Assembly (NCBI GenBank): GCA_001898385.1
Contig: MKTT01000102.1
Span: 80,570-144,569, forward strand
Direction of reading: 5' to 3'
Source of the DNA: Planctomycetales bacterium 71-10
GTDB lineage: Bacteria > Planctomycetota > Planctomycetia > Isosphaerales > Isosphaeraceae
Length of the DNA: 64,000 nt
In this document: positions 6,355 through 32,886 of the stretch, one piece after another
How the letters are laid out: each line of letters starts with the position of its first letter
How positions within the stretch are numbered: position 1 is the stretch's first letter
The notes under the pieces: generated by a model
Seen by the model: only the letters and a program-made list of their open reading frames with translations
Databases searched by the model: none
What the model was told of the DNA's origin: nothing
Program-made: the position numbers and the translations under genes

Positions 6355-6378
6355 CGACGGGCCGTGGGATTCGCCCCG

Positions 6379-6447: not shown

Positions 6448-6512
6448 GGGAAGCGTCCGCTGCATGACTCGCGACGATCGGCCACGAAGGCCGACGGCGG
6501 GCCGCTCGGGGG

Positions 6513-7133: not shown

Positions 7134-7262
7134 GGTCTTCTCCCTGGAATGCATGATCGCGGCCGATCTGGCGACGGCCGGCGAGGTCGCGCCGATTGTC
7201 ACGGCCCCGCCCGGCGCGGTCAATGGACCGCCGCCCGGCTGGCGGGATCCGGCGGGGGCCTG

Positions 7263-7268
7263 TAGAAT
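7263..7268 (+). promoter_or_regulatory. -10-like hexamer upstream of hpnC
   Basis: TAGAAT lies 57 nt before the hpnC ATG. It matches the -10 consensus at 5 of 6 positions, but no convincing -35 lies 16-18 nt upstream. Its position matches other -10-like hexamers in this window. Confidence 0.35.
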
Positions 7269-7319
7269 CGAACCCCCCGGCCGTTTCGAAGCGGCCCCGG
7301 CAGTCGGAGCGATTACGGC

Positions 7320-9184: not shown

Positions 9185-9194
9185 GGCGGCCCCG

Positions 9195-10685
9195 ATGACG
9201 AACCACCCCACGCCCCCCCCGCCGCACGTCGTCGTGGTCGGCGGCGGCCTCGCCGGCCTGGCGACGGCCGCGACACTCGTCGACCGCGGCCTGCGGATCA
9301 CCTTGCTGGAGAGCCGTCCCCGGCTCGGCGGCCGGGCTGCGTCGTTCACCGACCCCGCCACGGGCGAGCTGGTCGACAACTGCCAGCACGTCAGCATGGC
9401 CTGCTGCACGAACCTCGCCGATTTCTGCCGCCGCGTGGGGATCGAGGGCCTCTTCCGCCGCGAGCCGGCCGTGACGTTCCTCGGGCCCGACGGCCGCACG
9501 TCGACCCTCAAGGCCGGCCTCGGCCCGGCCCCGTTCCACCTCGGCACCAGCTTCCTCCGGGCGAACTACCTGGGCTGGCGCGACAAGCTCCGCGTCGCCT
9601 ACGGCCTGGCCCGGCTGGCCCTCGACATGGCGGGGGGCGAGCCCGGCGAGACCTTCGCCGACTGGCTCTGGCGGCACGGCCAGGACGTGCGGACGATCCA
9701 ACTGTTCTGGTCGACGGTCCTGGTCTCCGCCCTGAACGAGCGGCTGGACCGGCTGGACGTCGGCATGGCCCGCCAGGTGTTCGTCGACGGCTTCCTCATG
9801 AACCGCGACGGGTTCCAGATGGAGGTCCCCGCCGCGCCCCTGGGCGATCTGTACGGCCGGCGGCTGGAGGCGTGGCTCCGCGACCGCGGCGTCGACGTCC
9901 GGCTGACGACCGGCGTCCGCTCGATCGACGCCGACGAGGACGGCGACGTCCGCGGCGTCACGCTCCGCAGCGGCGAGGCCCTCGACGCCGACTTCGTCGT
10001 GGCCGCCGTCCCGTTCGACCGCGTGCGCAACCTCCTGGCCCCCGCCCTCCGCGAGCGGACGCCGGACCTCGACGGGCTCGATCGGATGGAGTCCTCCCCG
10101 ATCACCGGCGTCCACCTCTGGTTCGATCGCCCCGTCTGCCCGCTCGACCACGCGGTCGCCCCGGGTCGGTTCCTGCACTGGGTCTTCAACCACACCCGGC
10201 TCCAGGGCCGGGAGCCGCAGGGGGGCGGCGAGTACCTCCAGGTCGTCATCAGCGCCTCGTACGACCTCCTATGGATGAACAAGGAGATGATCCGCGACGC
10301 CGTGCTGGCCGACCTGGCCGCGATGTGGCCCGCGGCGAAGGAGGCGGAGCTGGTGCGCTGGTGGGTCGTCACCGAGCACGGCGCGACGTTCGCGGCGCGG
10401 CCCGGCGTGGACGCGATCCGGCCGCCGCAGCGCACGCCCGTCGACGGCCTGTTCCTGGCCGGCGACTGGACCGACACCGGCTGGCCCGCCACGATGGAGG
10501 GGGCGGTCCGCAGCGGCTACCTGGCCTCGCAGGGGATTCTCGAAGACCTCGACCGCCCCTCCCGCCTGATCCGCCCCGATCTCGCCCCCGGCCGTCTCGC
10601 CGGCCGGCTGCTGAAGCGACGGCCCGAGCGGATCCCGTTCAATCCCGACTTCGAAGAGACGGCCGCGGGTTTCGGACGGGATTGA
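9195..10685 (+). CDS. hpnE: Hydroxysqualene dehydroxylase HpnE (FAD-dependent)
   Basis: HpnE reduces hydroxysqualene to squalene, completing the hpnCDE pathway. The 496-residue flavoprotein has an N-terminal Rossmann dinucleotide fold with VVVVGGGLAGLATA (about residues 12-25), followed by ESRPRLGGRAASF, the usual continuation in the amine-oxidase/phytoene-desaturase class. Near the C-terminus, DGLFLAGDWTDTGWPATMEGAVRS is the second FAD-binding motif. Length is slightly above the usual 420-450 because of an Arg/Pro-rich extension of about 45 residues. It ends 10 nt before the stop of a convergent gene. Confidence 0.93.
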   Translation: MTNHPTPPPPHVVVVGGGLAGLATAATLVDRGLRITLLESRPRLGGRAASFTDPATGELVDNCQHVSMACCTNLADFCRRVGIEGLFRREPAVTFLGPDGRTSTLKAGLGPAPFHLGTSFLRANYLGWRDKLRVAYGLARLALDMAGGEPGETFADWLWRHGQDVRTIQLFWSTVLVSALNERLDRLDVGMARQVFVDGFLMNRDGFQMEVPAAPLGDLYGRRLEAWLRDRGVDVRLTTGVRSIDADEDGDVRGVTLRSGEALDADFVVAAVPFDRVRNLLAPALRERTPDLDGLDRMESSPITGVHLWFDRPVCPLDHAVAPGRFLHWVFNHTRLQGREPQGGGEYLQVVISASYDLLWMNKEMIRDAVLADLAAMWPAAKEAELVRWWVVTEHGATFAARPGVDAIRPPQRTPVDGLFLAGDWTDTGWPATMEGAVRSGYLASQGILEDLDRPSRLIRPDLAPGRLAGRLLKRRPERIPFNPDFEETAAGFGRD

Positions 10686-10695
10686 TCCGGCCGGC

Positions 10696-13600
10696 TCAGG
10701 TGCGAGTCGGCTCGGCCGGCGCGGGCTGCGGGACGGGGGCCTGGGGCCGCGGCTTCTCGCCCGGGAAAACCGCGCGGAGCCACGACGCGGCGACGGCGCG
10801 GCTCCAGGGGTCCATCTCCACGGTCCCGACGCAGAATTCCAGTCGTTTCCGAGCGTCCTCGGCCCGGCCGCGGTTGAGCAGGAAGCGGCCGACGAGGAAC
10901 TCGCAGAACGACCGGGGGAACGGCGGCATCGGCGCGATGAGGGCGTCGATCGCCCCGAGGTCGATGGGCTTCGCTCCGTCGCCTAGCGAGTCGAAGAGCA
11001 TGCCGGCGATCTGGACCGTGACGGGGCCTCGGTCCTTCATCTCGGCGATGCGCGTCGCCATCGCCGTGCGCTTCTCCGCGTCGCCGACCTGGTCGTACAG
11101 CAGGGCGATGTAGACGGCCGTGGTCAGCCGGTCGGTCGTTTCGGCCTCGGGCTCCAGCAGCCGGATGGCCTGCTCAGGCCGGCCCTCCGACCAGTCGATG
11201 AAGGCCGCCGCGGCCGGTTCGAGCGAGCCGGGCCGCATCGCCATCGCCGCGGCGGTGCGACGCGCCTCGTCGACGTCCCCGAGCCCGGTCCGCATGACGA
11301 AGAGGTACCACTGGGCCCAGGTGTGGGGATAGCGATCGACCATGCGGCGCCGCCACAGGCCGGCCGAATCCAGGTCGCCCAGCCGCTCGTCGACGTCGGC
11401 GGCGCAATCCATCGCCCAGCTGGCCCAGGTGCTCGCGGCGGCGTCGGCGTGCGGCTTCGCCTCCTCGGGCTGGCCCTTGGCGAGGTAGTGCTTCGCCAGC
11501 TTGACGCGCACGCCGGCGTGGTCGAGGCCGGCGTCCTCGGTGTTTTCCAGGTAGGCTTCCAGCGTCTCCAGCCAACCAGCCTCGTCGCCCGCCTTCTCCT
11601 GGCATTCGGCCAGCTTCTCGTAGCCCCAGCGGTCCGGCGACATGATGATGTAGCGCGTCAGCAGCGGCCGGGCCTCGTCGTGACGTCCCATCTGGAGCAG
11701 CTTCTTCACGAGGGCGTACACGAAGCCCGCGGAGTCGCCGAATCGCTCCTTCCACGCGGCCAGCCGCGGCTGCACGGCCCCCCATTGCAGCTCCAACAGG
11801 ACCCCGGGGGCGTAGGAGTCGTTCGGGCAGGTCTCCATCATGCGGGCGGCGACGCCCGGCTTCGCCTGGTCCGAGGAGGACCCCAGCACCAGGCTGAGGT
11901 CGCGGGCGGACGCCGTGCTGTGCGCGACCGCCAGGTTCCAGTCGTCCCTGGCGTCGGCCTGGTGGGGCCCCGGCGTCTGCTGGATGTAGCCGATGAAATC
12001 GCCCTCGCTGGGCTCGAGGTCCGACTTGTCGAACGACTTCGCGAACTCCTCGTAGTCGTCGAACTCCTCGGCCCGGCGGGTCAGGGCCCCGAGGTACGGG
12101 CGATAAGGATGGCCCTCGATGGTCGGCCTGGCGGCGGCCCAGAATTCGTCGATGGGGACGCCCCACTTGTCCCGCATGAACAGGAGCCGGCGCCGCGCCT
12201 GCGTGAACCGGGTCTCGCGAGCCAGGTGGGCGAGCACGCCCCACGAGGGCTCGCCGCCGCCCGCCGCGGAGAGGGCGCGGTCCAGGTCCGCGTCGTCCGC
12301 GTCGGCCTCCAGGGCCCGGCGGATCCCGGCCGGCAGGTCCTTCGCCGAGGCGAGCTTGGCGCGCAGGAACTCGCGGAAGCTCTGCGGCCCGAGCACCGTC
12401 GCCTTGTGCAGGTCGCCGAGGCCGCCGTTCGCGCTGATGACGTCGAAGGCCCGCGGGCAGTCGGGGTCGAGCCGGATCACGTCTTGGGCCGCATGGATGA
12501 GCTGACGCGACCCGCCCGGGAACTCCAGCGCGGTCATCCGCAGGAGGGCCGCGAGCCGGTCGTGGGGCGGCTTGATCGCGGACAGCTTCGGCAGTTGATA
12601 GTGGACGTAGGCGCCGATCACCTCCACCCACGGCGGGGGCGGCTCGGCGCCGCCGGCGCGGGCCGCCGCCTCCAGGTCGCGGATCGCGGCGTCGTGGACG
12701 CCGGCGAGGGCCTCGGCGAACGCGCGGACGCGCAGGCCCCGCGGCGAGCCCCGATCCTTCGCGATGAGCCGCTCGGCGTAGAGGAGCGAGCGGGCCTCGA
12801 ACGCCCGGTGCGCCGCGCTCCAGTGGTGGATGGACAGGGCGCCGAGCTGCGCGTAGCCCCGCGCGAGGGCCTCCAGCCGGGCCGGGGATTCGCCGTCGGC
12901 CCGGACGGCCGCGTGCAGGTCGCGGAGGGCCCGGACGTGCTCGACCAGGCCCAGCGAATTCAGCCCCGCCTCGACGCCTTCCGGCGAGGGGGCGTCGGGG
13001 CGGTAGGCGTTCGGCTTCCCTCGCACGCCCAGGGCGTCGAGCGCCGCCGGGATCTCGGTGCGCGACAGCTCCTCCAGTCGGCCGACCAACTCCAGGCCTA
13101 CGCCCTGGCCGCCGCGCGGGGCGAGGTCGGCCGAGAGGATCGGCGCGGCCTCCGGGTCGACCCGCCCGCCCGAGGCGGGCCGGATGAGCAGCCGGGCGCG
13201 GAAGCCCACGCGGATCAGCGAGCCGACCTCCGCCGCGGGCGCCTCCCCCGCGGCGGGCGGGGCGTCGTCGAGCAGCTGGTCGCGGGTGGCGGCGCCGCGT
13301 TCGTCGCGGGCGGCGATCAGGACCGCCTGGCGGATCAACTCGCGGAGCAGCAGGTCCGGATCCGTGCCGAGGATCTGGCGGAACTCGCGGGCGCCGACGG
13401 CGCGGGCCAGCTCGACGGTGGTCGAGCCGTCGTCCCCCTTCGCGATCCTCAGCAGGCTCTTGGCGTCGGCCGGGTCGGGCCCGTCGGGCGTCGACGGCGC
13501 GGGGGGCGGGGCCTGCGATAGCCCCTGCGGGAGGGGGGCCGCGGCCGGGGTCGCCGGGAACCAGGGCCGCGGGGGGATGTTCGTGTAGATCGCGGCCCCC

Positions 13601-18999: not shown

Positions 19000-19072
19000 C
19001 CGCGCTGGACGGTCTCCGGCCCGGACGGGACAATGGAAGCCTCGAGATCACGGGGCGATGGAGGGTTCACCG

Positions 19073-19633
19073 ATGGCGACCGTCGAGCACGAGGCCGCTC
19101 TCCTCACGGCCGAGGAGTTCGCGAAGCGACCGGATTCGGGGACGGCCGAGGAACTGGTGCGAGGGCGCGTCGTCATGTCTCCGCCGCCGAATCGACTTCA
19201 CGGGTACGTATGCGGCCGTGTCGTCTACTTCCTGTCGAGATATCTGGAGGACCACCCGATCGGCCGCGCGTTCGGCAACGACGCGGCGATCGTGACGCGC
19301 CGGGGGCCGGACACGGTGCGCGGGGCGGACGCGGCTTATTACAGCTTCGACCGCCTGCCGGCCGACGCCGACCTCGTCCCCTACGGCCCGGAAGTGCCGG
19401 AACTCGTCTTCGAGGTCCTGTCGCCGAGCGACCGCTGGAGCCGTGCGGTGGCGAAGGCGGGCGAGTACCTGGACGCCGGCGTCCTGGCGGTGGTGGTCCT
19501 CGACCCCGACGGGCGGACGGCGCACGTCTTCGAGGCCGACCGCCCGCCGGTCGCGCTCGGCCCGGACGACGTGCTGCGGCTGGAGCGGATCCTGCCCGGG
19601 TTCGAGGTGGTCGTCGGCAAGCTGTTCGGATGA
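19073..19633 (+). CDS. Uma2 family nuclease-fold protein (copy 1)
   Basis: A 186-residue Uma2 (DUF820) protein with a predicted restriction-endonuclease-like fold, found in large paralogue families in cyanobacteria and planctomycetes; function not established. The putative active-site pattern is D in RGADAAYYS, E in FEVLSPSDRW and K in AVAKAGEYLDAGV. The ATG at 19073 has GGAGG 7 nt upstream; an earlier in-frame ATG at 19058 would engulf that site. All three tandem copies start MATVE and have exactly 186 codons. It starts 73 nt after the ABC ATPase gene. Its 3' end is nearly identical in DNA to the end of copy 2. Confidence 0.88.
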   Translation: MATVEHEAALLTAEEFAKRPDSGTAEELVRGRVVMSPPPNRLHGYVCGRVVYFLSRYLEDHPIGRAFGNDAAIVTRRGPDTVRGADAAYYSFDRLPADADLVPYGPEVPELVFEVLSPSDRWSRAVAKAGEYLDAGVLAVVVLDPDGRTAHVFEADRPPVALGPDDVLRLERILPGFEVVVGKLFG

Positions 19634-19650
19634 AAACGGGAGGGGGCGCG

Positions 19651-20211
19651 ATGGCGACCGTCGAGCAGACGCGGGTTTTGATGACGGCCGAGGAGTTCGC
19701 GATGCGGCCCGACTCGGGGGCGGCCGAGGAACTGGTGCGAGGATTCGTCGTCATGTCGCCTCCCCCGGGGATCAGGCACGGGTTCGTATGCGTCAGGTTC
19801 GCCAAATTGCTGGCGACGTATGTGGACGACAACGAACTGGGCTGCGTCATCGGCAACGACGCCGGGGTGATCACCGAGCGTAAGCCGGACTCGGTCCGGG
19901 CCCCCGACGTCTCCTTCTACAGTTTCTCCAGGCTCCCCAAAGGCGATCTCCCCACCGGCTACAACGCGATGCCTCCCGACCTGGCGTGCGAGGTCCTCTC
20001 GCCCGGCGATCGGCGTAAGGACGTCATGGAGAAGGTGGACGAGTACCTGAAAGCCGGCGTCCTGGCCGTGGTGGTCCTGGATCCGGACAGGCGCACGGCA
20101 CACGTCTTCGAGGCCGACCGCCCGCCGGTCGCGCTCGGCCCGGACGACGTGCTGCGGCTGGAGCGGATCCTGCCGGGGTTCGAGGTGGTCGTCGGCAAGC
20201 TGTTCGGATGA
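19651..20211 (+). CDS. Uma2 family nuclease-fold protein (copy 2)
   Basis: A 186-residue paralogue of its neighbours. Candidate catalytic positions are D in RAPDVSFYS, E in CEVLSPGDR and K in VMEKVDEYLKAGV. A strong ribosome site GGGAGGGG precedes the ATG by 5 nt. The reading frame stays open far upstream through copy 1, but that part is out of frame with the real copy 1 gene. The middle third (residues about 40-120) differs clearly from copy 1, whereas the tail FEADRPPVALGPDDVLRLER and the following residues match, suggesting gene conversion or a recent exchange at the ends. Role within the transporter operon unknown. Confidence 0.88.
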   Translation: MATVEQTRVLMTAEEFAMRPDSGAAEELVRGFVVMSPPPGIRHGFVCVRFAKLLATYVDDNELGCVIGNDAGVITERKPDSVRAPDVSFYSFSRLPKGDLPTGYNAMPPDLACEVLSPGDRRKDVMEKVDEYLKAGVLAVVVLDPDRRTAHVFEADRPPVALGPDDVLRLERILPGFEVVVGKLFG

Positions 20212-20227
20212 AAACGGAGGAACCGCG

Positions 20228-20788
20228 ATGGCGACCGTCGAGCACGAGACCTCGCTTCTCACGGCCGAGGAATTCGCGATGCGGCCGGATTCGGGTATGG
20301 TCGAGGAATTGGTGCGAGGGCGCGTCGTCATGTCGCCGATGCCTGGCGCGAGGCATGGGAAGGTCTGCGCGACGTTCGCGCGGCTGCTCGGGAACTTCGT
20401 GGCCGATCGAGACCTCGGGCATGTCATGGGCAACGATTCGGGCGTCGTCGTCGCGCGCGGGCCCGACACCATCCGCGGGGCCGACGTCTCGTTCTACAGC
20501 TACGCCCGGCTCCCCAAGGGCGACCCGCCCGCCGGCTACGCGCCCAGTCCCCCCGAACTGGTCTGCGAGGTCCTCTCCCCCAGCGACCGCTGGACCGAGA
20601 CCCTTCAGAAGGCTTCCGAGTACCTCAAGGCCGGCGTACTCGCGGTCCTGATCGTCGACCCGAAAGATCGCACGGCGCACGTCTTCGAGGCCGACCGCCC
20701 GCCGGTGGCCCTGGGGCCGGACGACGTGCTGCGGCTGGAGCGGATCCTGCCCGGGTTCGAGGTGGTCGTCGGCAAGCTGTTCGGGTGA
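20228..20788 (+). CDS. Uma2 family nuclease-fold protein (copy 3)
   Basis: Third 186-residue Uma2 paralogue. Candidate active-site residues are D in RGADVSFYS, E in CEVLSPSDRW and K in TLQKASEYLKAGV. It is closer to copy 1 at the N-terminus (MATVEHE) and closer to copy 2 in the middle (YSxxRLPKGD). That mosaic fits duplication with exchange between copies. GGAGG precedes the ATG. The permease gene begins 10 nt after its stop, so it is almost certainly on the transporter transcript. I see no signal peptide or membrane segment, so the protein should be cytoplasmic. Confidence 0.88.
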   Translation: MATVEHETSLLTAEEFAMRPDSGMVEELVRGRVVMSPMPGARHGKVCATFARLLGNFVADRDLGHVMGNDSGVVVARGPDTIRGADVSFYSYARLPKGDPPAGYAPSPPELVCEVLSPSDRWTETLQKASEYLKAGVLAVLIVDPKDRTAHVFEADRPPVALGPDDVLRLERILPGFEVVVGKLFG

Positions 20789-22031: not shown

Positions 22032-23024
22032 TCAATCGGGCTTCCGCCGGACCTGCGAGCGCAGGCCCTTCAGGTCGCCCTGCTCCTCGACCGCCCGCAC
22101 GACGCGGAAGCCGACGAAGTCGGCGTCCCACACCCACCAGATGCTGCCGTCGGGGTCCATCTCATTCCAGGAGGGATCCGATGCCCGTCGCGCGGCGCTT
22201 CGGCAGCGGGCCGCGGGGTCGGCCCACGAGCCTCCCCGGGCGACGTGCGGATACGGCGAGGCGTCCGGCGGCACGATCGGGCCGACGGCCGGCCTGTCCG
22301 CGGGGAGCCTGGAATAGGCGTCGGCGTCGTAACGATCCAGGCACCACTCGGCCGCGTTGCCGAGGATGTCGTATAGCCCCCAGGGGTTCGCCGCCTTGCG
22401 GCCGACTGGGTGGGGCGTCTCGGCGTTCCCGTCGAGCCACGCGAAGCGGCCGAGGTCCTTCGGGTCGTCGCCGAAGAAGTAGGCGGAATCGGCCCCGGCG
22501 CGGCAGGCGTATTCCCATTCGGCCTCCGTCGGCAGTCGGTAGAGCTTGCCGGTCTTTTGGGAGAGCCAGTAGCAGTATTCCATCGCCGCGTGGTGGCTTA
22601 TGCCGATGGCCGGGAAGCCCTGCCGCCCGTAGCCGCGGGTCTCGTCGGGATAGGGAGGCGTGGGCCGGGTGACGGCGTCCGCGTCCCTCGCGAGCGTCTC
22701 GGCGTTCGACCGGTTGTTGGGGACGGGGCCCGACTTGCGGAACGCATCGTATTCGTCCCAGGCGACCTCGGCCCTGCCCATCCAGAACGGTCGGATCGCG
22801 ACGCGACGCCGCGGGCCCTCGTCGTCGCCGCGGGCCGCCTCGCCTTCGGGGCTGCCGATCGCGAACATCCCGCCCGGGATCGCGACCATGTCGAACCGGA
22901 CCGTCGAGCCGGGGATGGACTCGGTGTAGTCCGCGTGCGAGACCTTCGGCGGCTCGTCGGCCCGGACGATCGCCGTCGAGAGGAAGGCCAGGCCGGGGAT
23001 GATCGTCCAGCGTCGTCGCGTCAT
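22032..23024 (-). CDS. FGE/sulfatase-modifying-factor-like exported protein
   Basis: A 330-residue protein with a signal peptide (about 1-22) and a formylglycine-generating-enzyme-like fold. Motifs: IPGGMFAIGSPEGE, RPFWMGRAEVAWDEYDAF, HHAAMEYCYWLSQKTG, YRLPTEAEWEYACRAG, NPWGLYDILGNAAEWCLDRY, ARGGSWADPAARCRSAAR and VGFRVVR. True aerobic FGEs use a Cys pair shortly after RGGSW. Here that region has one Cys (ARCRS) and not the CxxxYC arrangement, so it is probably not a sulfatase activator but one of the many ligand-binding or hydroxylase-like relatives. It follows the cyclase-fold protein gene at 37 nt and is probably the last gene of that operon. Confidence 0.88.
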   Translation of the reverse strand: MTRRRWTIIPGLAFLSTAIVRADEPPKVSHADYTESIPGSTVRFDMVAIPGGMFAIGSPEGEAARGDDEGPRRRVAIRPFWMGRAEVAWDEYDAFRKSGPVPNNRSNAETLARDADAVTRPTPPYPDETRGYGRQGFPAIGISHHAAMEYCYWLSQKTGKLYRLPTEAEWEYACRAGADSAYFFGDDPKDLGRFAWLDGNAETPHPVGRKAANPWGLYDILGNAAEWCLDRYDADAYSRLPADRPAVGPIVPPDASPYPHVARGGSWADPAARCRSAARRASDPSWNEMDPDGSIWWVWDADFVGFRVVRAVEEQGDLKGLRSQVRRKPD

Positions 23025-23061
23025 CGGTTTGGTCCTCGGGGAGCGGCGCGGCCCGGTCGCC

Positions 23062-25116
23062 CTAGCGCCGCCTCGGCTCGGCGGGGGCTTCCAGGGGAGG
23101 CGCGGGGTCGGGGAGTTCGTCGTCGTCCTCGGCCAGGTGCTCGGGGAGGCTGGGACGGTCGTAGAGGCGGAGGTAGCGGTAGTAGACCTCCAGCGTCAGG
23201 GCGGCGAAGGTGGTGCAGTAGATCCGGCCGCCGCGCGAGCCGTAGACGCTGTCGTCGGGGTCCCAGCTCCCCGTCATGTGGCCGGAGGTGCGCTGGAGCG
23301 AGACCAGGCGGTCGCGCAGGCGGCCGTTCCACTCGGCCCAGGGACGGCCGCCGTGCTGGTACATGGCGAGGGTCGCGTAGTACCAGTAGTAGACGTTCGT
23401 CGAACCCTTGTCGGACTCGTGGTCGAGCAGGTACGCGGCGGCCTCCGCGCTGGCGGGGCCGGGGCCGCCGAGGCCGAGGAACTGGCGGCAGGCCCAGGCC
23501 TCGGCGGTCATGGTGGGCGTGACCTTGTCGGCGGGCTGGTACTTGGCCAGGCCCCTGGAATCGCCGTCGGAGACGCGGTCGAGCCAGGTCGCGGCCCCGC
23601 GCTCCAGCGACGCCTGGTCGGGGATCGGCAGGCCGGACTCGCGGGCGGACTTCAGGGCCATGACGACCCAGCCGAGGATGCTGGTGTCGCCGACGGTCGC
23701 GCCGGGGGCGTAGCGCCAGGATTGGCCGTCGCGGGCCCGCGAGCGCGCCAGGAAGCCCACGGCGCGCTCGGCGGGGCCGCGGAGCCGCTCGTCCAGCGAC
23801 AGCGCGTAGCCCTCGCAGAGGGCGAGCGTCGCGATCGCGTGGCAGTACATGCCGACGGTCTTGCTGACGCCGCGGAGGTCGCCGTCGGGCTTCTGCTGGC
23901 GGATCAGGAAGGTGAGGCCGCGGGCGATGACCTTGGCGTACCTCCCCTCCTTGTGCGTGTGGCCGGCGCCCAGGTAGGTCAGCAGGGCGAGCGCGGTCAG
24001 GCCGGTGTCGGCCTCCCAGTAGGCGCACTCGCCGAAGCAGACCTGGCCCTCGGGGCAGTGGACGGTGTAGTCGTCGTCCCCCTCGACGACCTCGCCGTCG
24101 GCGTAGCGGGCGGTGCCGCCGTCCCAGCGGCCGTCGGCGTCCTGGTGCCGGGCCAGCCAGTCGAGCGCCCGCTCCACGGCCAGCTCGCTCGCCCGGCTGG
24201 CGCCCGAGCGCTCGGCGCGGGCGGAGCGGTCGGCGTCGAGCCGCGATCGGTAGATCTTCGGGACCTCCGTGATCGGCCCGCGGGGCGTCGACGACAGGTC
24301 CGCCAGCGCCGGCGCGGCGGGCTCAACCGGGGCCGGCCGGGGCGGGGCGAGGGCCAGCGCCGGCGGCTCGGGCCTCGGCGCGGCCGGCTCGACGCGCGGC
24401 GACGCTTCGGGACGCGGGCGGGGCCGGCCCGATCGCAGGCGGGCGTCGCCGAGCGGGACGTTCCGCTGCGGGGCCTCGACCTCCGGGGCGGGCGCGGGGG
24501 CCTCGGGAGCCTCCAGCGTGGCGTCGCCGGCCGCGGCGATCGCCTCGGGAGGCGCGGCGAGCGGCTCGGGGGCCGGGTCGACCGGCGTCGGCGCGGGCTC
24601 GGGGGGCGGCGGCTCCGGGAGTTCCGGCGCGACGGCCGTCGCGGCGACCAGGGCCGGGGCCTCCAGTTTCGGGGGCTCCGGCATGACGGGGATGGCCGAA
24701 GGATCGGCCTCGGGCCGGGGCGCGTCGAGCCGACGGGCGGCCAGCGCGACCGGCTGGTCGAGGCGGTCGATCGGCGCGGGGCCGGCGCGGCGGGCGTCGC
24801 CTCCCGGGGCGAACGGCCGCGGGTCGGCGTCGCCCGGGGCGGATTCGGCGACGGGCGAGACCCGGACGTGCCGCTCGGCCTCCTCCTCCCGTTGCGGGTG
24901 CAGGGCCCGCAGCACGGAGGGGACGCTCCCGCCCCCGAGCAGGAGCACCGCGTGCGCCGCGATGGAGAGGGCCAGGCACTTGCGGATCGCGTTCCGCGAG
25001 CCCCAGCTCACCCAGACCAGGATCGCCGTCGCCATGAGGGCCAGGGCCCCGAGCGCCCACGCGCCGAGGTCGGCCTTCAGCAGCATCAGGAACGATTCCA
25101 GGTCCAGTCCGGTCAT
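23062..25116 (-). CDS. TonB-like-anchored terpenoid-cyclase-fold protein (copy A)
   Basis: A 684-residue membrane protein. Two N-terminal hydrophobic helices lie at about 17-37 and 48-62. The second contains S51-I-A-A-H55, matching the SxxxH motif of the TonB transmembrane helix. A Pro/Ala-rich linker of about 230 residues, like the TonB spacer, follows. The C-terminal domain (about 300-660) is an alpha/alpha barrel of the prenyltransferase/squalene-cyclase fold: ALDWLARHQDADGRWDGG, FLIRQQKPDGDLRG, GDTSILGWVVMALKSA. The cyclase DxDD acid is absent, so enzymatic cyclisation is unlikely. A Cys cluster CPEGQVCFGEC occurs. A strong GGAGGAGG site selects the ATG at 25116. The ExbB/TolQ gene is 49 nt upstream. 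Confidence 0.88.
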   Translation of the reverse strand: MTGLDLESFLMLLKADLGAWALGALALMATAILVWVSWGSRNAIRKCLALSIAAHAVLLLGGGSVPSVLRALHPQREEEAERHVRVSPVAESAPGDADPRPFAPGGDARRAGPAPIDRLDQPVALAARRLDAPRPEADPSAIPVMPEPPKLEAPALVAATAVAPELPEPPPPEPAPTPVDPAPEPLAAPPEAIAAAGDATLEAPEAPAPAPEVEAPQRNVPLGDARLRSGRPRPRPEASPRVEPAAPRPEPPALALAPPRPAPVEPAAPALADLSSTPRGPITEVPKIYRSRLDADRSARAERSGASRASELAVERALDWLARHQDADGRWDGGTARYADGEVVEGDDDYTVHCPEGQVCFGECAYWEADTGLTALALLTYLGAGHTHKEGRYAKVIARGLTFLIRQQKPDGDLRGVSKTVGMYCHAIATLALCEGYALSLDERLRGPAERAVGFLARSRARDGQSWRYAPGATVGDTSILGWVVMALKSARESGLPIPDQASLERGAATWLDRVSDGDSRGLAKYQPADKVTPTMTAEAWACRQFLGLGGPGPASAEAAAYLLDHESDKGSTNVYYWYYATLAMYQHGGRPWAEWNGRLRDRLVSLQRTSGHMTGSWDPDDSVYGSRGGRIYCTTFAALTLEVYYRYLRLYDRPSLPEHLAEDDDELPDPAPPLEAPAEPRRR

Positions 25117-25165
25117 CGGCCTCCGCCTCCTCCCGTGCCAGCATAGCCGAACGCGGGCCCGGGGG

Positions 25166-26056
25166 TCACGCCCCGACGGAGGGCTCGTCGCGGCGCCCAC
25201 GCGCGGCCGACCCTCGGACGGGGACGACGACGGCCGGCTTGCGCTCCGCCGCGCCCGGCTCGCCGATCCGGATGTGCGGCGCCGGCGCGTGGGCCGCGAG
25301 CGTGGGCGTCGCGACGGCCGTGGTCATCGCGACGGCGTCGATCGTCTCGGCCCCCAGGCGGTCGAGCGCCGCCCCCAGCCGCTCCACTCGGGTCGCGAGG
25401 AAGTCGTTGAGGACCATCGCGACGACCCCCAACCCCACGCCGAAGACCAGCGGCCCGAGCGCGTCGGCCAGCGATGCGGACGAGATCGGCTCGCCCCCGG
25501 CCTGCCGCAGCAGGCGCTGGGCGATCAGCAGCGAGCCGAACAGGCCGATCAGCGGGGCGAGCGTCGCGATCCGCCTCAGCGTCCCGACGTTCCGCCGCAA
25601 TTGCTCCGATTCCCAGCGGTGCGCCAGGTCGACGGCCCGTTCCAGCTCGGCCGCCGGCCGCCCCCAGCGGCGCACCGCGGCCAGGGCGACGCGCGCGGCG
25701 GGGCTGGGGTGCATCTCGCAGTAGTCCAGCGCCTGGCCGCCGTCGAGCTTGCCGGCGTGGAGCCGGTCCACGAACCGGGCGAGGAAGTCGTTCGGCACCA
25801 CGGCCCGGCGTCGCAGCCGCGCCAGGCGCTCCAGCGTCACGCACGCCCCCAGCGCCGCGCACGCCGCGAGCCCGCCCCAGGCCATGCGCTCGCCGGCCGG
25901 CGTCCGCTCGTACCAGACCAGTACCTCGCCCGCGACCCTCGCGGCCCGGCGCTGGACCTCCACCGAGAGGTCGCCCCGCGGCCCCTCCGCGGCGGCCGCG
26001 CCGACCGGCAGCGAGGCCGCGAGCAGGATGAAGGCGACGCGTGAAGTCACGGCCAT
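25166..26056 (-). CDS. MotA/TolQ/ExbB proton channel family protein
   Basis: A 296-residue inner-membrane channel protein, the motor class that uses proton flow to drive TonB, TolA or flagella. An N-terminal signal-like segment (about 7-23) is followed by three membrane helices at about 59-77, 165-185 and 200-220. The family motif is clear: LRRIATLAPLIGLFGSLLIA, then SLADALGPLVFGVGLGVVAMVLNDFL. The large loop between helices 1 and 2 is cytoplasmic, as in TolQ. No ExbD/TolR gene is adjacent; instead the next gene encodes a protein with a TonB-like helix. AAGGAG precedes the ATG at 26056. An open frame continues upstream through the repeat and antisense to the TPR gene, and is not coding. Confidence 0.9.
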   Translation of the reverse strand: MAVTSRVAFILLAASLPVGAAAAEGPRGDLSVEVQRRAARVAGEVLVWYERTPAGERMAWGGLAACAALGACVTLERLARLRRRAVVPNDFLARFVDRLHAGKLDGGQALDYCEMHPSPAARVALAAVRRWGRPAAELERAVDLAHRWESEQLRRNVGTLRRIATLAPLIGLFGSLLIAQRLLRQAGGEPISSASLADALGPLVFGVGLGVVAMVLNDFLATRVERLGAALDRLGAETIDAVAMTTAVATPTLAAHAPAPHIRIGEPGAAERKPAVVVPVRGSAARGRRDEPSVGA

Positions 26057-26106
26057 GAACGGGCTCCTTCCCGGTGTGACGAGGGATCGCGGCGTTTCCA
26101 TGTCGT

Positions 26107-26523
26107 CCCCTCTACCGCCGGGAGAGGGGAGCCGCGCAGCGGCGGGTGAGAGTCGTCGGGGTGCCGAGGGCACGTCGGGCGCGCGAAGGCGGAGCAAGCC
26201 GACGACGACGGCCTTCCCCCCTCGCGGGGGAAGGTGGCCCGCAGGGCCGGATGAGGGGGACGACGAGCGAGTCGACCGTCGGGCTCCCGAGCCGGTCGGG
26301 CGGGCCGTCGAAGCCCGACGGTGCCCTTGCTTCGCGTCCCCCTCATCTGACCCCTGCGGGGTCTGTCTTCCCCCGCGAGGGGGGAAGACAATCGCCCGGC
26401 CCGCTTCGCCGCGTTCTCGGCGAAGCACTTCAAAGGGAGAAGGGCTCGATGGCCGCGGCTTCCTCGAAATCCGGCGACCCTCACCCGGCCCTTCGGGCCG
26501 CCCTCGCCCGGCGGGAGAGGGGG
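26107..26523. repeat. Dispersed nested inverted repeat, copy R1
   Basis: A 417-bp element filling most of the 494-nt gap between the TPR and ExbB-like genes. Outer modules 26107-26129 and 26477-26523 are C-rich/G-rich (CCCCTCT...GAGAGGGG). Inner arms 26211-26259 and 26338-26389 each hold two small hairpins (CTTCCCCC...GGGGGAAG plus a variable C/G stem), and are inverted relative to each other. The core between them is homologous, in reverse orientation, to the cores of the copies at 45.2 and 46.9 kb. It lies inside a likely operon. Confidence 0.9.
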
Positions 26524-26550
26524 CGTGATGTTTGACCCCGCCGACCCCGC

Positions 26551-29500
26551 TCATGGCTTCGCCCCGCGCTCGGCCAGCACCTTCTCGCGGCGCTCGCGGG
26601 CCTCGGCTGCGTGGGGGTCGTCGGCGAAGTTGGCGAGGATGTTCTGATACGTCTCCGCGGCCTCGGCCCGGCGGCCGAGGCGCTCGTAGACCTTGCCGGC
26701 TTCCAGCAGGGCGGCGGCGCGGCGTCGGGGGGCTTCGGGGTAGAGGACGTCGACCTGGAGGAACTCGCGGAGGGCCTGGAGGAACTGCTCCTCGTGGAAG
26801 TACGCCTCGCCGCGCATGAGCTGGGCCTGGGCGGCCAGGTCGCCGGTCTTGCGCGAGTCGATCACCGCCTGGAACGCCGCGCGGGCCTCCTCGGGGCGGC
26901 CCAGGCCCAGCAGGGCCCGGCCGCGGGCGAACTCGACCGGGTCGCGGGCCGGCGGGTCGGCGATCGTCGGCTTCAGGGCGTCGGCCTCGTCGAGCGCCGC
27001 CTGCCAGCGCCTCAGGCCCAGGAGGCACTGGAGCCGCCGCTCCTTCGCCAGCCGGATCAGGTCGGGCGGGTCGTCGGGCGAGGCCGGGGCGGCGATCAAC
27101 TCGGCCAGCATCGTCTCGGCTGGCTCGAACTGGTCCTGGCGCAGGGCGGCCTCGGCGCGGAGGAACCGGGCCTCGCGGATCCGGGGGCTCGCGGGGGCCT
27201 CGGCGATCAGGCGGTCGAGCGTCGTCGCGGCGGCGGGCCAGTCGCCCAACTCGACCCGCGTCCGGCCCAGGCGGTACAGCACGTCGGGGGCCAGACGCTC
27301 GGGGAGCTTCGGGGCGTCCGGGCCGCCGTCGACCATCGGGGCGAGCAGCCTGACGACCTCGGCGAAGTCCTTGCGCTCGTTGGCGGACTCGGCCAGGTTG
27401 AAGCGGGCGTCGGCGGCGTGAGGACTGGTCGGGATCTCGTCCAGCAGTTGCGCGAAGACCTTGTCGGCCTCGGCGACCTCGCCGGCGTCGATCAGGTCCC
27501 AGCCGCGATCGGCGAGGAGGGCGTCGACGGGCTGGTCGATCGCCTTCAGCCGCGCTCGGGCCTCGTCGCCGTCGAGCAGCCGGCCGAGCACGTCGGCGGC
27601 CTCTTTCGGCCGGTCCTTGGCCAGCAGGCGGGCGCGGGCGAGCGCGGCGAAAACGGCGGCGTCCTGCTTCGGGGCGCGGGTTTCGACCTGCTCGTAGGCG
27701 GCCAGCGCCGCGGCGACGTCGCCGGCCGCCTCGACGACGCGGGCGCGCTCGTAGGCCAGCGCGGCGGCCTTCGATTCGTCGGTCGCGCGGGCGAGGAGGG
27801 CGTCGAACGCCTTCGACGCCCCGGCGGCGTCGCCTCGCTTCGCCAGGGCCCGCGCCAGGCCGAGTTCCGCGCGCTCCTTCAGGTCGGCGGGGACCTGGGG
27901 GGCGGTCGACTCGGCGAGCGGGCGGAACTGCTCGACGGCCTTCGACCAGTCGCCGGCCTCGGCGAACGCCTCGGCGAGCCGCAGGCGGACGGGCGGGAGC
28001 GCGGGGCTGTCGGGGGACCTCGTCTCCAGCCGGCCGACCGCCTCGGCGGCCTCGTCGGGCTCGTTCAGGGCGACCTTCGCGGCGGCGAGGTTGGCCAGCG
28101 CGTGGTCGGCGAGCGGGCCGTCGGGGGCGGCCCTGAGCGAGCGGTCGAACTCGGCGGCGGCCTCGGCGAAGCGGCCGGCGTCGAGGTGCGACCGGCCCAG
28201 CATGAAGGCGGCGTCGGCGGCCGTCTTGCCGTTCGCCGAGCCGGCCAGCGACGCGAGCATCGAGTCGGCCCGCTCGGGCTTGCCGGCGGCGCGGTACGCG
28301 TCGGCCAGCTCGTAGCGGGCGGCCTCGACCACCTCGGGCGCGGCGTCGGGGGGCTTCGAACCGTCGCCGAGGAGCGGCTCCAGCGCGGCGATCGCGGCGT
28401 CGTGACGGCCGGCGGCGGCCTCGGACTTCCCCCAGACCAGCCGGGCGACGAGGGTCAGCTTGCTCCCCGGATGGAGTTCGACCAGCTTCCGGGCGGCGCC
28501 GGAGGCCGCGTCGTGGTCGCCGAGCTTCTGGGCGATCCGGGCCGCCTCCAGCAGCGCGTCGTCCGCCCAGGGATCGGATGGGAAATCGGCCGCGACCTTG
28601 AGGAACCGCGCGCGGGCGTCGGCGTCGCGGCCCAGGATGCGCAGGGCCTCGGCGGATCGATAGGCCAGCGCGGGGGCCAGCGGCGACTTGCCGGCGCGGG
28701 CGAGGGCCGCGTCGAGCGTCCGGAGGGCGTCCTCGGGCCGCTTCCGGCGCAGGTCGACGCTCGCGGCGTCCAGGCTCGCCTCGACGGACGCGGGCTCGGC
28801 CGGGTCGGCGGCCAGCGGGGCGAGGGCTTCGGCGGCCTCGTCGAGCCGGTCCAGCCGCATCAGCGCCTGGCCGCGGCGGAGGCGGGCCTCCGCCTGGATC
28901 GGGCCCGGGCCGACCTTCCCCAGCGCCTGCTCCGCGGCTTCGAACCGGCCCGCGGCCAGCTCGATCTTGCCGACCTGGAGCCGCGCCTTGTCCAGCCATT
29001 CCGGGGGGCCGCGGCGGATCAACTCGTCGAGGACTTCCAGGGCCTTCGGCCCGTCGCCGGTCGCGGCGAGGGACCGGGCCAGGCCGTAGCGGGCGCGATC
29101 GGCCAGGCGGGCGTCCGGGAAGCGGCCCAGCGATTCCTCATACGCCGTGCGCGCGCCCGCGGGGTCGTCCAGGGCCAGGCGGACGTCGCCCAGGTAGGTC
29201 CAGGCGGTCTCCAGGTTGGCGTGGTCGGCGGGCCCGGACGTGAACCGCTCCAGGGCCTCGCGGGCGGCGGGGAGGTCGCCCAGCATGTACGACAGCTCGC
29301 CCAGCCGATACCAGGCCGTGCGCGACCGGGGATGGTCGGGGGCCTTCGCTAGGAAGTCGCGGAACGCCTCGCGCGACTCTTTATAGAGGCCCTGGAGCAG
29401 CCGCGCGCTCGCCAGGCCGAAGCGTGCGTCGTCGCCGTGAGGCGGGCGCGGGTCGGTCTCCAGGAAGCGGGCGTACTCGTCGGCCGCCAGGTCGTACTTC

Positions 29501-29685
29501 CGCTGGCGGAACAGGCCGTGCGCGAATCGCAGGGCGTCGGGCATCCGAGGCGGCTCGGCCCCCTCCTGCCCCATCGCGATCCCCGTCGCGGCGAGCGCGA
29601 GCACCAGCGCGACCGTCGCGAGGCCGGATCGCGGCGGCCGGCGGATCGTCGTGCCCGGGTTCCTATTCGTCACGAGGGAGATCAA
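26551..29685 (-). CDS. Exported giant TPR repeat protein
   Basis: A protein of about 1044 residues made almost wholly of TPR repeats after a signal peptide or anchor (GLATVALVLALAATGIAMGQ). Examples of repeats: FAHGLFRQRKYDLAADEYARF, LGELSYMLGDLPAAREALERF, KVYERLGRRAEAAETYQNIL. The first repeats resemble CpoB/YbgF, the TPR protein of the Tol-Pal system, though this one is several times longer. I place the start at a TTG (29685) with GGGAGGGG 2-5 nt before it. A GTG at 29673 is a close alternative and leaves the signal peptide intact. The ExbB/TolQ gene lies downstream across a 494-nt repeat. The combination TPR, TolQ-like and TonB-like proteins suggests an envelope-spanning energised complex (inference). 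Confidence 0.85.
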   Translation of the reverse strand: MISLVTNRNPGTTIRRPPRSGLATVALVLALAATGIAMGQEGAEPPRMPDALRFAHGLFRQRKYDLAADEYARFLETDPRPPHGDDARFGLASARLLQGLYKESREAFRDFLAKAPDHPRSRTAWYRLGELSYMLGDLPAAREALERFTSGPADHANLETAWTYLGDVRLALDDPAGARTAYEESLGRFPDARLADRARYGLARSLAATGDGPKALEVLDELIRRGPPEWLDKARLQVGKIELAAGRFEAAEQALGKVGPGPIQAEARLRRGQALMRLDRLDEAAEALAPLAADPAEPASVEASLDAASVDLRRKRPEDALRTLDAALARAGKSPLAPALAYRSAEALRILGRDADARARFLKVAADFPSDPWADDALLEAARIAQKLGDHDAASGAARKLVELHPGSKLTLVARLVWGKSEAAAGRHDAAIAALEPLLGDGSKPPDAAPEVVEAARYELADAYRAAGKPERADSMLASLAGSANGKTAADAAFMLGRSHLDAGRFAEAAAEFDRSLRAAPDGPLADHALANLAAAKVALNEPDEAAEAVGRLETRSPDSPALPPVRLRLAEAFAEAGDWSKAVEQFRPLAESTAPQVPADLKERAELGLARALAKRGDAAGASKAFDALLARATDESKAAALAYERARVVEAAGDVAAALAAYEQVETRAPKQDAAVFAALARARLLAKDRPKEAADVLGRLLDGDEARARLKAIDQPVDALLADRGWDLIDAGEVAEADKVFAQLLDEIPTSPHAADARFNLAESANERKDFAEVVRLLAPMVDGGPDAPKLPERLAPDVLYRLGRTRVELGDWPAAATTLDRLIAEAPASPRIREARFLRAEAALRQDQFEPAETMLAELIAAPASPDDPPDLIRLAKERRLQCLLGLRRWQAALDEADALKPTIADPPARDPVEFARGRALLGLGRPEEARAAFQAVIDSRKTGDLAAQAQLMRGEAYFHEEQFLQALREFLQVDVLYPEAPRRRAAALLEAGKVYERLGRRAEAAETYQNILANFADDPHAAEARERREKVLAERGAKP

Positions 29686-30287
29686 TCGCCCCTCCCACCC
29701 CGCCCGTGGTGCGCCCAACGGTCGGGCCCATCCTTGCGTACCAGCCTAGGAGACGGCAAAGTCGTCCCGGCCGCGAAGGGCGACCGGGCTTCTCCGGAAG
29801 CCCCACGTCGCAGAGCCCGCGGGACAGGTCCTATTGTCCCCCCGACGCTCGCCCGGCTCAACCCTCCTGGATCGTCCCGGGCGACCACCACGGCGATTTC
29901 GCCCGGCCGCACTGGACTGAGATCGGCATGCTAGACTTTCGGCAACAGGTTCGTCGCGGGCTCTCCAAGGCGGGAGGGCGAGCGGCGGCCGGTTCCGCAG
30001 AAATTTTCGAGACCCGGACCGTCGGTGAGGCTGGTGCAGGCTTTGCGATCGGCATAAACGGCGCAGTGTCCCGAGGTGGTCTGGATTCTCGATTTTCTTG
30101 TGAAGTGGATTCTGGACATGGCGGCAGGGTCCATATATTCTACTGAGAATTCGCAAAACTCCCAGAGCACGCAATTGGTCGGCCGATGCGTCCTTCGATA
30201 CGCGGCGGTCGGTGCCTGCTCGACCGGTCTCACCGCCGGGAGCTAGTTGAAATCGAACCTGATCCGGTATCCGTGGAGATTGCAACA
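29686..30287. other. Intergenic region, lower GC, no gene
   Basis: About 600 nt between divergent genes, with visibly lower GC than the surroundings from about 29930. No reading frame here has a ribosome site and coding-like composition. On the plus strand, TGGACA (30113-30118) followed after 17 nt by TATTCT (30136-30141), with an overlapping TATATT at 30134-30139, is a weak candidate promoter for the gene at 30288, implying a leader of about 140 nt. On the minus strand a TAGGCT hexamer near 29745-29750 could serve the TPR gene. Confidence 0.4.
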
Positions 30288-31055
30288 ATGCTTCGCACTC
30301 GGTTGTTCAGCGCGGCGGCGGTCGCCTTGGCGGCCTCGTCGGCCTATGCCCAGGCCCCGTCCAAGCAGGCGCCGATCCCGGTCGCCCCCGCGAAGGTCGC
30401 TCCGGTGGCCCAGGCCCCGGTCGCCCCCGCGAAGGTCGCTCCGGTGGCCCAGGCCCCGGTCGCCCCCGCGAAGGTCGCTCCGGTCGCCCAGGCCCCGACG
30501 AAGGTCGCTCCGGTGGCCCAGGCTCCGGTGGCCCCGACGAAGGTCGCTCCGGTGGCCCAGGCCCCGGCCGCCCCGGCGAAGGTCGCGCCGGTCCCGCAGG
30601 CCCCGACGAAGGTCGCTCCGGTGGCCCAGGCCCCGGCCGCCCCGACGAAGGTCGCGCCGGTCCCGCAGGCCCCGACGAAGGTCGCTCCGGTGGCCCAGGC
30701 CCCGGCCGCCCCGACGAAGGTCGCGCCGGTCCCGCAGGCCCCCGCCAAGGCCACGCCGGTCGCCGTCCCGCAGGCCCCCGCCAAGGTGGCTCCGGCCGCC
30801 CAGGGCGCCCCCGTCGCCCCTCTGAAGGTCGCCCCGGCCGCTCAGGATGGAGCCGTCGCCGCTCCGGCCGCCCCCGCCGCGGCCGTCCCGGCCCCGCCGG
30901 CCCCGGCCGCCGAAGAGCCCCCGCCGGCCCCGGCCGCTCCCGCGGTCCCGGGCACGCCGGAGATCCCGGCCGCCCCTGCGGTCCCGGCCGTCCCCGAGAT
31001 CCCGGCCGTCCCCGCCGTCCCGGGCGTCCCCGCCCCGGCCGCTCCGCAGGCCTGA
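30288..31055 (+). CDS. Secreted low-complexity Ala/Pro/Val repeat protein
   Basis: A 255-residue exported protein of extremely low complexity. A clear signal peptide ([21 protein letters not shown], then QAPSK) precedes repeats of 13 ([13 protein letters not shown]) and 10 ([10 protein letters not shown]) residues over about residues 32-155. The tail is Pro/Ala-rich with [13 protein letters not shown] units. Lysines are the only regular charges in the repeats, giving a basic extended rod; the tail holds a few Glu. Such sequences resemble extended spacers like the TonB linker or cell-wall-spanning stalks. It has no catalytic motif. The ATG at 30288 has a GGAG nearby, and a strong terminator follows the stop. 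It lies between the two TonB-like-anchored gene sets. Function unknown. Confidence 0.75.
30381..30750 (+). repeat. In-gene tandem repeats, 39-bp and 30-bp units
   Basis: Units of 39 and 30 bp encode [13 protein letters not shown] and [10 protein letters not shown]. In the second half they alternate to make a 69-bp higher-order period repeated with almost no changes. Such near-identical DNA copies point to recent slippage or unequal exchange, and length polymorphism between strains is likely. Confidence 0.85.
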
Positions 31056-31284: not shown

Positions 31285-32886
31285 ATGAAGCTGCGCGAAT
31301 TGCCGCAGGGGTTGCTCGATCGCATCGCCCGCGTCTCGGTGGCGTGGGAGGGCCGCGACATCGACCGGCGCACCCTGCGCTCGGTCCCTTCCTGGGGCGT
31401 GAGCCTCCTGCTCCACGCGCTGGCGTTGCTGATCCTGGCGTTCCTGATCCGGATCGGGGGGCGGGGCGAGCCGGACCGGGCCTTCACGGCCGAACTGCCG
31501 CCGCCGGGCGAAATCGCCGACGTCACGTCGTTGGCCGAGGCCGACCGCTCCGGGGATCCGTTCACGGACGTCGACGACCCGAACCCGCCGTCGCTGAGCC
31601 TCGGGCCCGCCGATCCCGAGATGAAGTTCGCGAACCAGCCCGAGGTCCCCAACCTGGTCGCCTTCGCCCCCGAGCCGGCCGGCCCCGCGCCGCGCCGCGA
31701 CGTCACCCCCTCGATGATGGGCGCCGCCCCGCTGATGGGCCTGGCGGCGAACGTCCAGGCACCGTTCTCGGGCCGCACGGGGATCGGCCGCGCCGACCTC
31801 GTCCGCCGCGAGGGGGGGACCGTCCATTCCGAGAAGGCGGTGGAGGACGGCCTGGAGTGGATCGTCCGCCATCAGAAGGCCGACGGCTCGTGGGTGCTGG
31901 ACGTCCGCGACGTCTGCCAAAGCTGCCCGGCGCAGGCGACGATCGTCTCGCAGACCGGCGCGACGGGGCTCGCCCTGCTGCCGCTGCTGGGGGCGGGCTA
32001 CATCCACACGGTCAAGAGCCGGCACCAGGCGGCCGTGCGGCGGGGGATCGAGTGGCTGGTCGAGAACCAGCAGCCGAACGGCGACCTCCACGTCGGCGGG
32101 ACCGGCACCAGCTACCTCTACAGCCACGCCATCGCCGCGATGGTCCTCTGCGAAGCCTACGGCGTCTCGCGCGACCCCGCGCTCCGCCAGCCCGCCGCGC
32201 GCGCCGTGGCGTTCATCGTCGAGGCCCAGGATCCGGCGGGGGGCGGTTGGAGGTATCGGCCCGGCCAGGCGGGCGACACCTCGGTCTTCGGCTGGAACAT
32301 CTTCGCCCTCCGCAGCGCGAACCTCGCCGGGCTCTCCATCCCCAAGCAGACCCTCCGCGGCTGCACCGACTACCTGAACTCGGCGGCGACCGACGGCAAG
32401 AAGGTCCTGTACGCCTACCAGCCCAACCACGCCGTCTCGCCGGTCATGACGGCCGAGGCCCTCGTCGGCCGCCAGATCATGGGATGGCCCCGCGAGCATC
32501 CGTCGCTCATCAAGGGGGCCGGCCGCGTCGCCGCGCACCTGGAGCGGTCCGAGGACCGGAACATCTACTACTGGTATTACGCCACCCAGCTCCTGCACAA
32601 CATGCGGAACAAGGACTGGGAGCGCTGGAACCCCCACGTCCGCGAGGCGCTGATCCGCGCCCAGGTCCACGACGACGGCTGCCCCGACGGCAGTTGGGAT
32701 CCCGCCTTCCCCAGCCAGGATCGCTGGGGCATGTCCGGCGGCCGGCTCTTCCAGACGTCGCTCTCGATCCTGACCCTGGAAGTCTACTACCGCTACCTCC
32801 CCCTCTACCGCACCGCCGACGAGGAGGGCCTCGACGGGCCCCCGCCGCCGCGCGGCGCGGAGCCGAAGCCGGAGAAGAAGGCGTAG
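31285..32886 (+). CDS. TonB-like-anchored terpenoid-cyclase-fold protein (copy B)
   Basis: A 533-residue paralogue of the protein encoded at 23062-25116. About 35 cytoplasmic residues precede one membrane helix (about 36-56) that contains S40-L-L-L-H44, again the TonB SxxxH pattern. A Pro/Asp-rich linker follows. The cyclase-fold barrel covers about residues 180-515: GLEWIVRHQKADGSW, WLVENQQPNGDLHVGG, GDTSVFGWNIFALRSA, IYYWYYATQLLHNM. The pair CQSC matches the Cys cluster of copy A. No DxDD is present. The linker is much shorter than in copy A. It is transcribed alone, with no ExbB gene beside it. Confidence 0.87.
   Translation: MKLRELPQGLLDRIARVSVAWEGRDIDRRTLRSVPSWGVSLLLHALALLILAFLIRIGGRGEPDRAFTAELPPPGEIADVTSLAEADRSGDPFTDVDDPNPPSLSLGPADPEMKFANQPEVPNLVAFAPEPAGPAPRRDVTPSMMGAAPLMGLAANVQAPFSGRTGIGRADLVRREGGTVHSEKAVEDGLEWIVRHQKADGSWVLDVRDVCQSCPAQATIVSQTGATGLALLPLLGAGYIHTVKSRHQAAVRRGIEWLVENQQPNGDLHVGGTGTSYLYSHAIAAMVLCEAYGVSRDPALRQPAARAVAFIVEAQDPAGGGWRYRPGQAGDTSVFGWNIFALRSANLAGLSIPKQTLRGCTDYLNSAATDGKKVLYAYQPNHAVSPVMTAEALVGRQIMGWPREHPSLIKGAGRVAAHLERSEDRNIYYWYYATQLLHNMRNKDWERWNPHVREALIRAQVHDDGCPDGSWDPAFPSQDRWGMSGGRLFQTSLSILTLEVYYRYLPLYRTADEEGLDGPPPPRGAEPKPEKKA

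Follow-up and report, generated by a model that had tools for sequence, protein, structure and literature searches.

Gene content of the locus

The window, i.e. the whole stretch of 64,000 nucleotides that was analysed, originates from an Isosphaeraceae genome related to Paludisphaera. A gene cluster is located at 22032-29685 and is read from the minus strand, with a second barrel gene lying beyond its start on the plus strand. The following genes and features were annotated, each given with the evidence on which the annotation is based:

26551-29685, minus strand: exported giant TPR protein that opens the cluster, approximately 1044 aa with an uncertain start codon; TPR families with E-values down to 1e-66, tol_pal_ybgF-type repeats with an E-value of 1.9e-76
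25166-26056, minus strand: divergent ExbB/TolQ paralogue (operon copy); PF01618 at 35.2 bits, residue counts, a tree with a long stem and dN/dS
23062-25116, minus strand: putative TonB-like transducer with a cyclase-fold barrel head, 684 aa; Pfam, conservation, AF2 and structural matches
24952-24966, minus strand: Ser51-x-x-x-His55, predicted motor-docking signature in the second transmembrane (TM) helix; 16 of 16 orthologues, Ser in 104 of 110
24847-24867, minus strand: putative D-box-like strand VRVSPVA (residues 84-90) just past the TM helix; position and alternation like the TonB D-box of PMC10907165
24271-24846, minus strand: Pro/Ala-rich linker; sequence, unconserved in the orthologue alignment
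23131-24270, minus strand: alpha/alpha barrel of the squalene-hopene cyclase fold (residues 283-662) with aromatic-rich conserved residues; AF2, Z-score of 26.2 to 2sqc_A
31285-32886, plus strand: second SxxxH-anchored cyclase-fold barrel with S40/H44 and only one TM helix, pointing away from the cluster in divergent orientation
22032-23024, minus strand: exported protein with an FGE-sulfatase domain (SUMF1/GldK-like), 37 nt downstream of the barrel gene; PF03781 with an E-value of 1.5e-43

The TPR protein has a signal-peptide-like start, and its orthologue is the operon's first gene across the phylum. The score of the ExbB/TolQ-family gene compares with a PF01618 cut-off of 22.9 bits, and this gene ends 49 nt ahead of the barrel gene. 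On re-inspection, the coordinates and features given in the original prediction (the helix, the linker, the spacing to ExbB and the preceding TPR gene) proved correct. The reported lack of an ExbD gene holds for the cluster at 22032-29685, where none is present, but not for the genome, where seven ExbD domains are encoded at other sites, all of them accompanied by intact ExbBs.

The FGE protein is also matched by the GldK model (E-value of 3e-26). Its gene is found in the same-genus loci L056, L058 and L059, and was not detected in L057, L060 or any locus outside the genus. Because only some same-genus loci carry this gene, the FGE protein is probably not a core component and was rejected as a member of the system. 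The second barrel gene adjoins the cluster within the genus only.

Several other elements were observed in this region. An intergenic palindromic element (window 26100-26530, with arms at 26244-26353 and 26206-26394) lies between the TPR and ExbB genes, and approximately 40 or more copies related to it occur at other sites of the genome. Positions 30186-31055, which are flanked by the genes for the TPR protein and the second barrel, encode an exported-looking protein that consists almost wholly of repeats, with units of 30/39 nt, and for which no Pfam match was obtained. Tandem genes for Uma2-family putative nucleases are present in about three similar copies (19058-19633, approximately 19630-20211, and 20228-20788), the first and last of which match PF05685. 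In the same-genus genome of L056, the barrel and ExbB genes lie around 6 kb apart (5803-11846), possibly as the result of an insertion.

Membrane anchor and Ser/His signature

The barrel protein starts with a TM hairpin, with helices at approximately residues 19-37 and 47-65. A membrane helix carrying S51 and H55 had been described earlier; the helix and both residues are indeed present, but there are two TM helices and the SxxxH signature sits in the second. The loop between them (GSRNAIRK) is positively charged and presumably cytoplasmic, and the second helix is therefore expected to have the in-to-out topology of TonB. Ahead of TM1, the Isosphaeraceae proteins carry an Asp that is nearly invariant (GLDLExFLxLLRxD). 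An ExbD-like role for this first helix was considered and rejected, as its topology would be reversed.

Next, the conservation of the signature was analysed. The alignment of 16 orthologues, whose identity to the window protein is 32-75%, has no invariant columns before residue 286 other than S51 and H55. The nearest named genome is that of Paludisphaera soli, whose barrel protein is 72% identical. More widely, a TM His was scored in 110 barrel proteins, of which 104 have Ser at position -4 from it, while the other helix positions vary. The SxxxH pattern is kept among orthologues and well beyond them and is not a chance occurrence. In a few members (L076, L128, L138 and L202), Ala replaces this Ser. 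The Leu at +7 and the Ser at +11 from the His, which complete the SHLS motif, are variable and not conserved in the barrel proteins scored. Within a sample of 20 loci across the phylum, every TM-anchored barrel paralogue has SxxxH, and the paralogues with only a signal-peptide-like N-terminus are without it.

A different N-terminal arrangement was observed in the Phycisphaerales-type loci L115, L122, L141, L158, L160, L168 and L171, where a PD40 propeller (tested in L115 and L122) lies between an extra N-terminal TM helix and the SxxxH hairpin. This Phycisphaerales-type transducer is a natural propeller-barrel fusion in the same operon.

Gene order across the phylum

Only the barrel, as a protein or as an alignment, was used to collect loci, and the motor genes played no part in the selection. 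Outside the Isosphaeraceae, 60 loci had 2 kb or more of upstream DNA, and the neighbourhood was counted at these. ExbD lies directly upstream of the barrel gene at 57 of these 60 loci, and ExbB is present as well at 39 of the 60. The ExbB neighbour pointed out in the original prediction is thus conserved, together with an ExbD. Based on the 57 loci, the missing local ExbD is a lineage trait of the Isosphaeraceae. The full order TPR-ExbB-ExbD-barrel was found in records of Pirellulales, Planctomycetaceae, Thermoguttaceae and Phycisphaerales, and in family f2 the set is split, with ExbD-barrel at L079, L080, L084 and L085 and TPR-ExbB at L201 and L205. The operon ExbBs outside the Isosphaeraceae keep T148, T181, S34 and P190 (44 of 44 for each); the roles of important residues of E. 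coli ExbB/TolQ are described in PMC12215075 and PMC12905483. The ExbDs of the barrel operons likewise keep the TM Asp. The ancestral operon is TPR-ExbB-ExbD-transducer.

Most barrel paralogues have no motor genes nearby, which would suit a reading of the SxxxH helix as a lineage-typical membrane anchor only, with the motor-gene neighbourhood being incidental. This reading was already disfavoured and we give it hardly any credence, since the Ser and His persist while the rest of the helix varies, and ExbD synteny extends over nearly all loci outside the Isosphaeraceae. The background frequency of SxxxH, measured on the ORFs of the collected loci, also argues against a mere anchor. Ser is found at -4 in 8 of the 32 TM histidines of other ORFs in the same DNA, and these eight cases outside barrels include four N-terminal pieces of the barrel proteins themselves and three transducer-type vWA proteins.

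D-box-like strand, linker and barrel head

As described in PMC10907165, TonB has a strand just past the helix, with alternating hydrophobic and polar residues, which is captured by the ExbD dimer. Comparable strands are present at this position in many relatives of the window protein, e.g. IRVTLVS (L124), VHVSLVE (L109) and VQVALVS (L115). The strict D-box pattern occurs in 34 of 104 relatives, compared with 5.9 for shuffled segments and 3.0 for stretches further along the linker. At L109 and 12 other loci, ExbD and the transducer start lie in one frame past a single stop. For modelling with AF2, ExbD was read through the stop into the start of the transducer, which is a modelling device and not a protein made by the cell. 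In the resulting model of ExbD with the transducer N-terminus, the D-box residues coincide exactly with a strand, but its pLDDT of only about 40 means that this is no proof. The long Pro/Ala linker is present as originally proposed, and its sequence is not conserved among the orthologues.

The product of 23062-25116 is matched by SQHop_cyclase_C (Pfam, E-value of 5e-6). The AF2 model of the barrel has a pLDDT of 90.6 and a pTM of 0.91, and its match to the squalene-hopene cyclase 2sqc_A covers 291 aligned residues with an rmsd of 3.2 Å. The single-domain cyclase 8paj follows with a Z-score of 25.7, and lower-ranked structural neighbours are sugar epimerases and other alpha/alpha barrels, including GH76. 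The barrel had been described as a squalene-cyclase fold without the catalytic DxDD. The fold is confirmed and no conserved DxDD was found, but a D-x-D-D string (DPDD) is present at residues 619-622 of the window barrel, near the C-terminus. As such a string occurs in only 8 of 73 relatives and at scattered positions, DPDD is not the conserved cyclase DxDD. Cyclase activity was set aside, the test for a conserved DxDD having come out negative. The barrel family is widespread, being present in 178 of the 199 Planctomycetota genomes, often with around ten copies.

Alternatively, the barrel might be an enzyme or binding protein (cargo or regulator) with its own lipid or glycan chemistry, which the S/H helix tethers to a motor but which is not mechanically pulled. 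Such a role would fit the strong conservation of the barrel with its many aromatic invariant residues, the enzymes among its fold neighbours (cyclases, sugar epimerases and GH76) and the existence of anchor-free barrel forms with a signal peptide. We regard it as unlikely, given that DxDD is not conserved, that the long unconserved linker and the putative D-box fit the architecture of a force transducer, and that a conserved linkage to ExbB/ExbD is not what one would expect of a simple enzyme.

Duplicated ExbB of the Isosphaeraceae

Within the Isosphaeraceae, ExbD is present at 0 of 27 loci and an ExbB-like gene lies within 2.5 kb at 19 of the 27. A stand-alone ExbB was found in 24 of the 28 Isosphaeraceae genomes searched, the other four genomes being 68-81% complete, and it is accompanied by ExbD everywhere except in one case cut by a contig end. 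In the window genome, the stand-alone ExbB-ExbD pair is located at C102:34838-36180, approximately 68 kb from the cluster, and four ExbBD sets are present in total. Orphan MotA/ExbB-family matches with no ExbD nearby were also seen in this genome (C32:3733-3918 and C132:45351-45689).

In the ExbB tree, the operon and stand-alone copies of the Isosphaeraceae are sisters (98/90), nested among the operon ExbBs, with stem lengths of 2.61 and 0.63 changes per column, respectively. For several other families, it is the barrel-operon ExbB that matches the stand-alone ExbB best. At the sequence level, the Isosphaeraceae operon ExbB is a product of duplication that has diverged fast. Within the genus, dN/dS amounts to 0.31-0.41 for the operon ExbB and 0.33-0.38 for the stand-alone copy. 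The operon gene is intact, and its ratio points to purifying selection. When the PDB was searched by sequence, the window ExbB retrieved nothing at an E-value of 0.01, whereas the stand-alone ExbB gave matches to TolQ/ExbB structures.

The two copies differ at residues of the motor. The TonB-contact Ser (S34 equivalent) and the pore Thr (T181 equivalent) are each present in 0 of the 20 operon copies versus 24 of the 24 stand-alone copies, and the T148 equivalent is present in 10 of 20 operon copies. The window ExbB itself has Ser and Leu at the pore Thr pair (T148 and T181 of E. coli ExbB), and because the pore Thr is absent, its designation as a channel is doubtful. All 20 operon copies have an Asp in TM3 at the position of E. 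coli N196, where Asp is not among the common residues of other groups. P190 is lost in both Isosphaeraceae ExbB copies.

The original prediction made the local ExbB the motor of a machine working without ExbD, and neither part could be upheld: the operon copy is fast-diverged and without the motor and contact residues, the ancestral operon has an ExbD, and the Isosphaeraceae keep an intact ExbB-ExbD pair elsewhere. One might still picture the operon ExbB as an ExbD-free motor ring, with a proton-binding Asp on its own TM3, driving the barrel-headed transducer. If true, this would be a minimal two-component machine run by the proton motive force (pmf), unlike any known 5:2 motor. The invariable TM3 Asp, the intact gene under purifying selection and the lack of ExbD in all 27 Isosphaeraceae operons are in its favour. 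Such a ring is nevertheless very unlikely, as the ring Thr (T181) and the helix-contact Ser are each lost in 20 of 20 copies, and the same genomes hold a complete sister ExbB-ExbD pair. Taken together, the phylogeny, the residue losses and the stand-alone pair suggest that the ExbB of the cluster is a modified copy with an accessory role, which is probably non-conducting. The working motor pair for the Isosphaeraceae barrel protein is probably supplied in trans, the phylogeny being what points to this.

Proposed mechanism and relevance

Based on these results, we consider it likely that the 23062-25116 product transmits force in the manner of TonB/TolA, with the pmf as its energy source and a barrel as its head, and that in the Isosphaeraceae it is driven by ExbB-ExbD in trans. 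The central element of this reading, a TonB-like arm with a cyclase-fold barrel as head, had been put forward in the original prediction and is well supported by the SxxxH conservation and the ExbB/ExbD neighbours. By analogy with homologous systems, the TM helix with its Ser-x3-His would dock against the outer surface of an ExbB5-ExbD2 proton motor, and the periplasmic domains of ExbD would grip the D-box strand after the helix. The long Pro/Ala linker would then carry the cyclase-fold barrel in place of the TonB C-terminal domain and transmit force. Proton flow through the motor might tug or release the barrel, which may bind a partner, be it a lipid, a glycan or a protein, in the outer compartment. 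The best candidate for this partner, or for an adaptor of the barrel, is the operon's TPR protein, because it is encoded first in the operon and stays with ExbB when the operon splits. In the Isosphaeraceae, including the window genome, the working ExbB-ExbD would be encoded elsewhere, with the operon ExbB as an accessory.

TonB has been reported missing from most planctomycetes (PMC3422733). Neither the TonB C-terminal domain (PF03544) nor the Plug domain of TonB-dependent receptors was detected in the Isosphaeraceae (0 of 26 genomes for each), with control genomes being positive. These genomes, although without TonB, still keep several ExbB-family genes, and barrels with the TonB docking signature, which occur phylum-wide and often several per genome, with one of them encoded in a conserved row with the motor, would offer those motors concrete clients. 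If the proposed mechanism is true, a new head fold, possibly with a cavity for a ligand, joins those of pmf-driven force transduction. The mechanism bears on the energisation of the unusual outer envelope of planctomycetes, and it is open to test by a few point mutations. The ExbB duplication of the Isosphaeraceae also provides a natural experiment on the residues needed for docking and proton flow.

Comparison with known systems

With TonB and TolA, the barrel protein shares an in-to-out TM helix with Ser-x3-His, a putative D-box-like strand, a Pro-rich linker and ExbB-ExbD partner genes. In cryo-EM structures, the equivalent Ser and His of TonB/TolA contact ExbB S34/W38 and TolQ (PMC12215075, PMC12905483). 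Unlike TonB/TolA, the barrel protein has no TonB_C domain and lacks the Leu and Ser of SHLS, and the Isosphaeraceae are without TonB-dependent receptors. The window ExbB belongs to the PF01618 fold family of ExbB/TolQ and differs by the T181 and S34 losses, the TM3 Asp and the lack of a local ExbD. The product of 26551-29685 resembles CpoB (YbgF) of the Tol-Pal system in being an exported TPR protein encoded with a motor, but it is much larger with many more repeats, and the similarity is at the repeat level only, with no evidence of orthology. The alpha/alpha barrel fold is common to the window protein and the class II terpene cyclases, including squalene-hopene cyclase, whereas the window protein has no conserved DxDD, has one barrel and is helix-anchored on a linker. 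Full-text searches, covering papers outside subscription, retrieved no paper that brings together planctomycetes, ExbB/ExbD and barrels of the squalene/cyclase type.

According to Williams-Jones et al. (2025, PMC12204202), vWA force transducers have an SHLS-type Ser/His TM helix, a disordered linker with a motor box and a non-TonB head, and in PVC bacteria their genes stand in a row with TPR, tolQ-like and tolR-like genes. Cyclase or squalene is not mentioned in that paper, and no vWA match was obtained by sequence in the 23062-25116 product. The window genome also has an ExbB-ExbD-ExbD-vWA set with SxxxH on C108 (L016, 8930-12670), beside a gene for a proton-pumping pyrophosphatase. The barrel family has the SxxxH helix, the linker and the TPR/tolQ/tolR-type row in common with the vWA transducers. 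It differs in the unrelated alpha/alpha cyclase-fold head, in the N-terminal TM hairpin and in having one ExbD in the row instead of a pair, with none in the Isosphaeraceae row. The barrel family hence parallels the vWA transducers, but with a new head fold.
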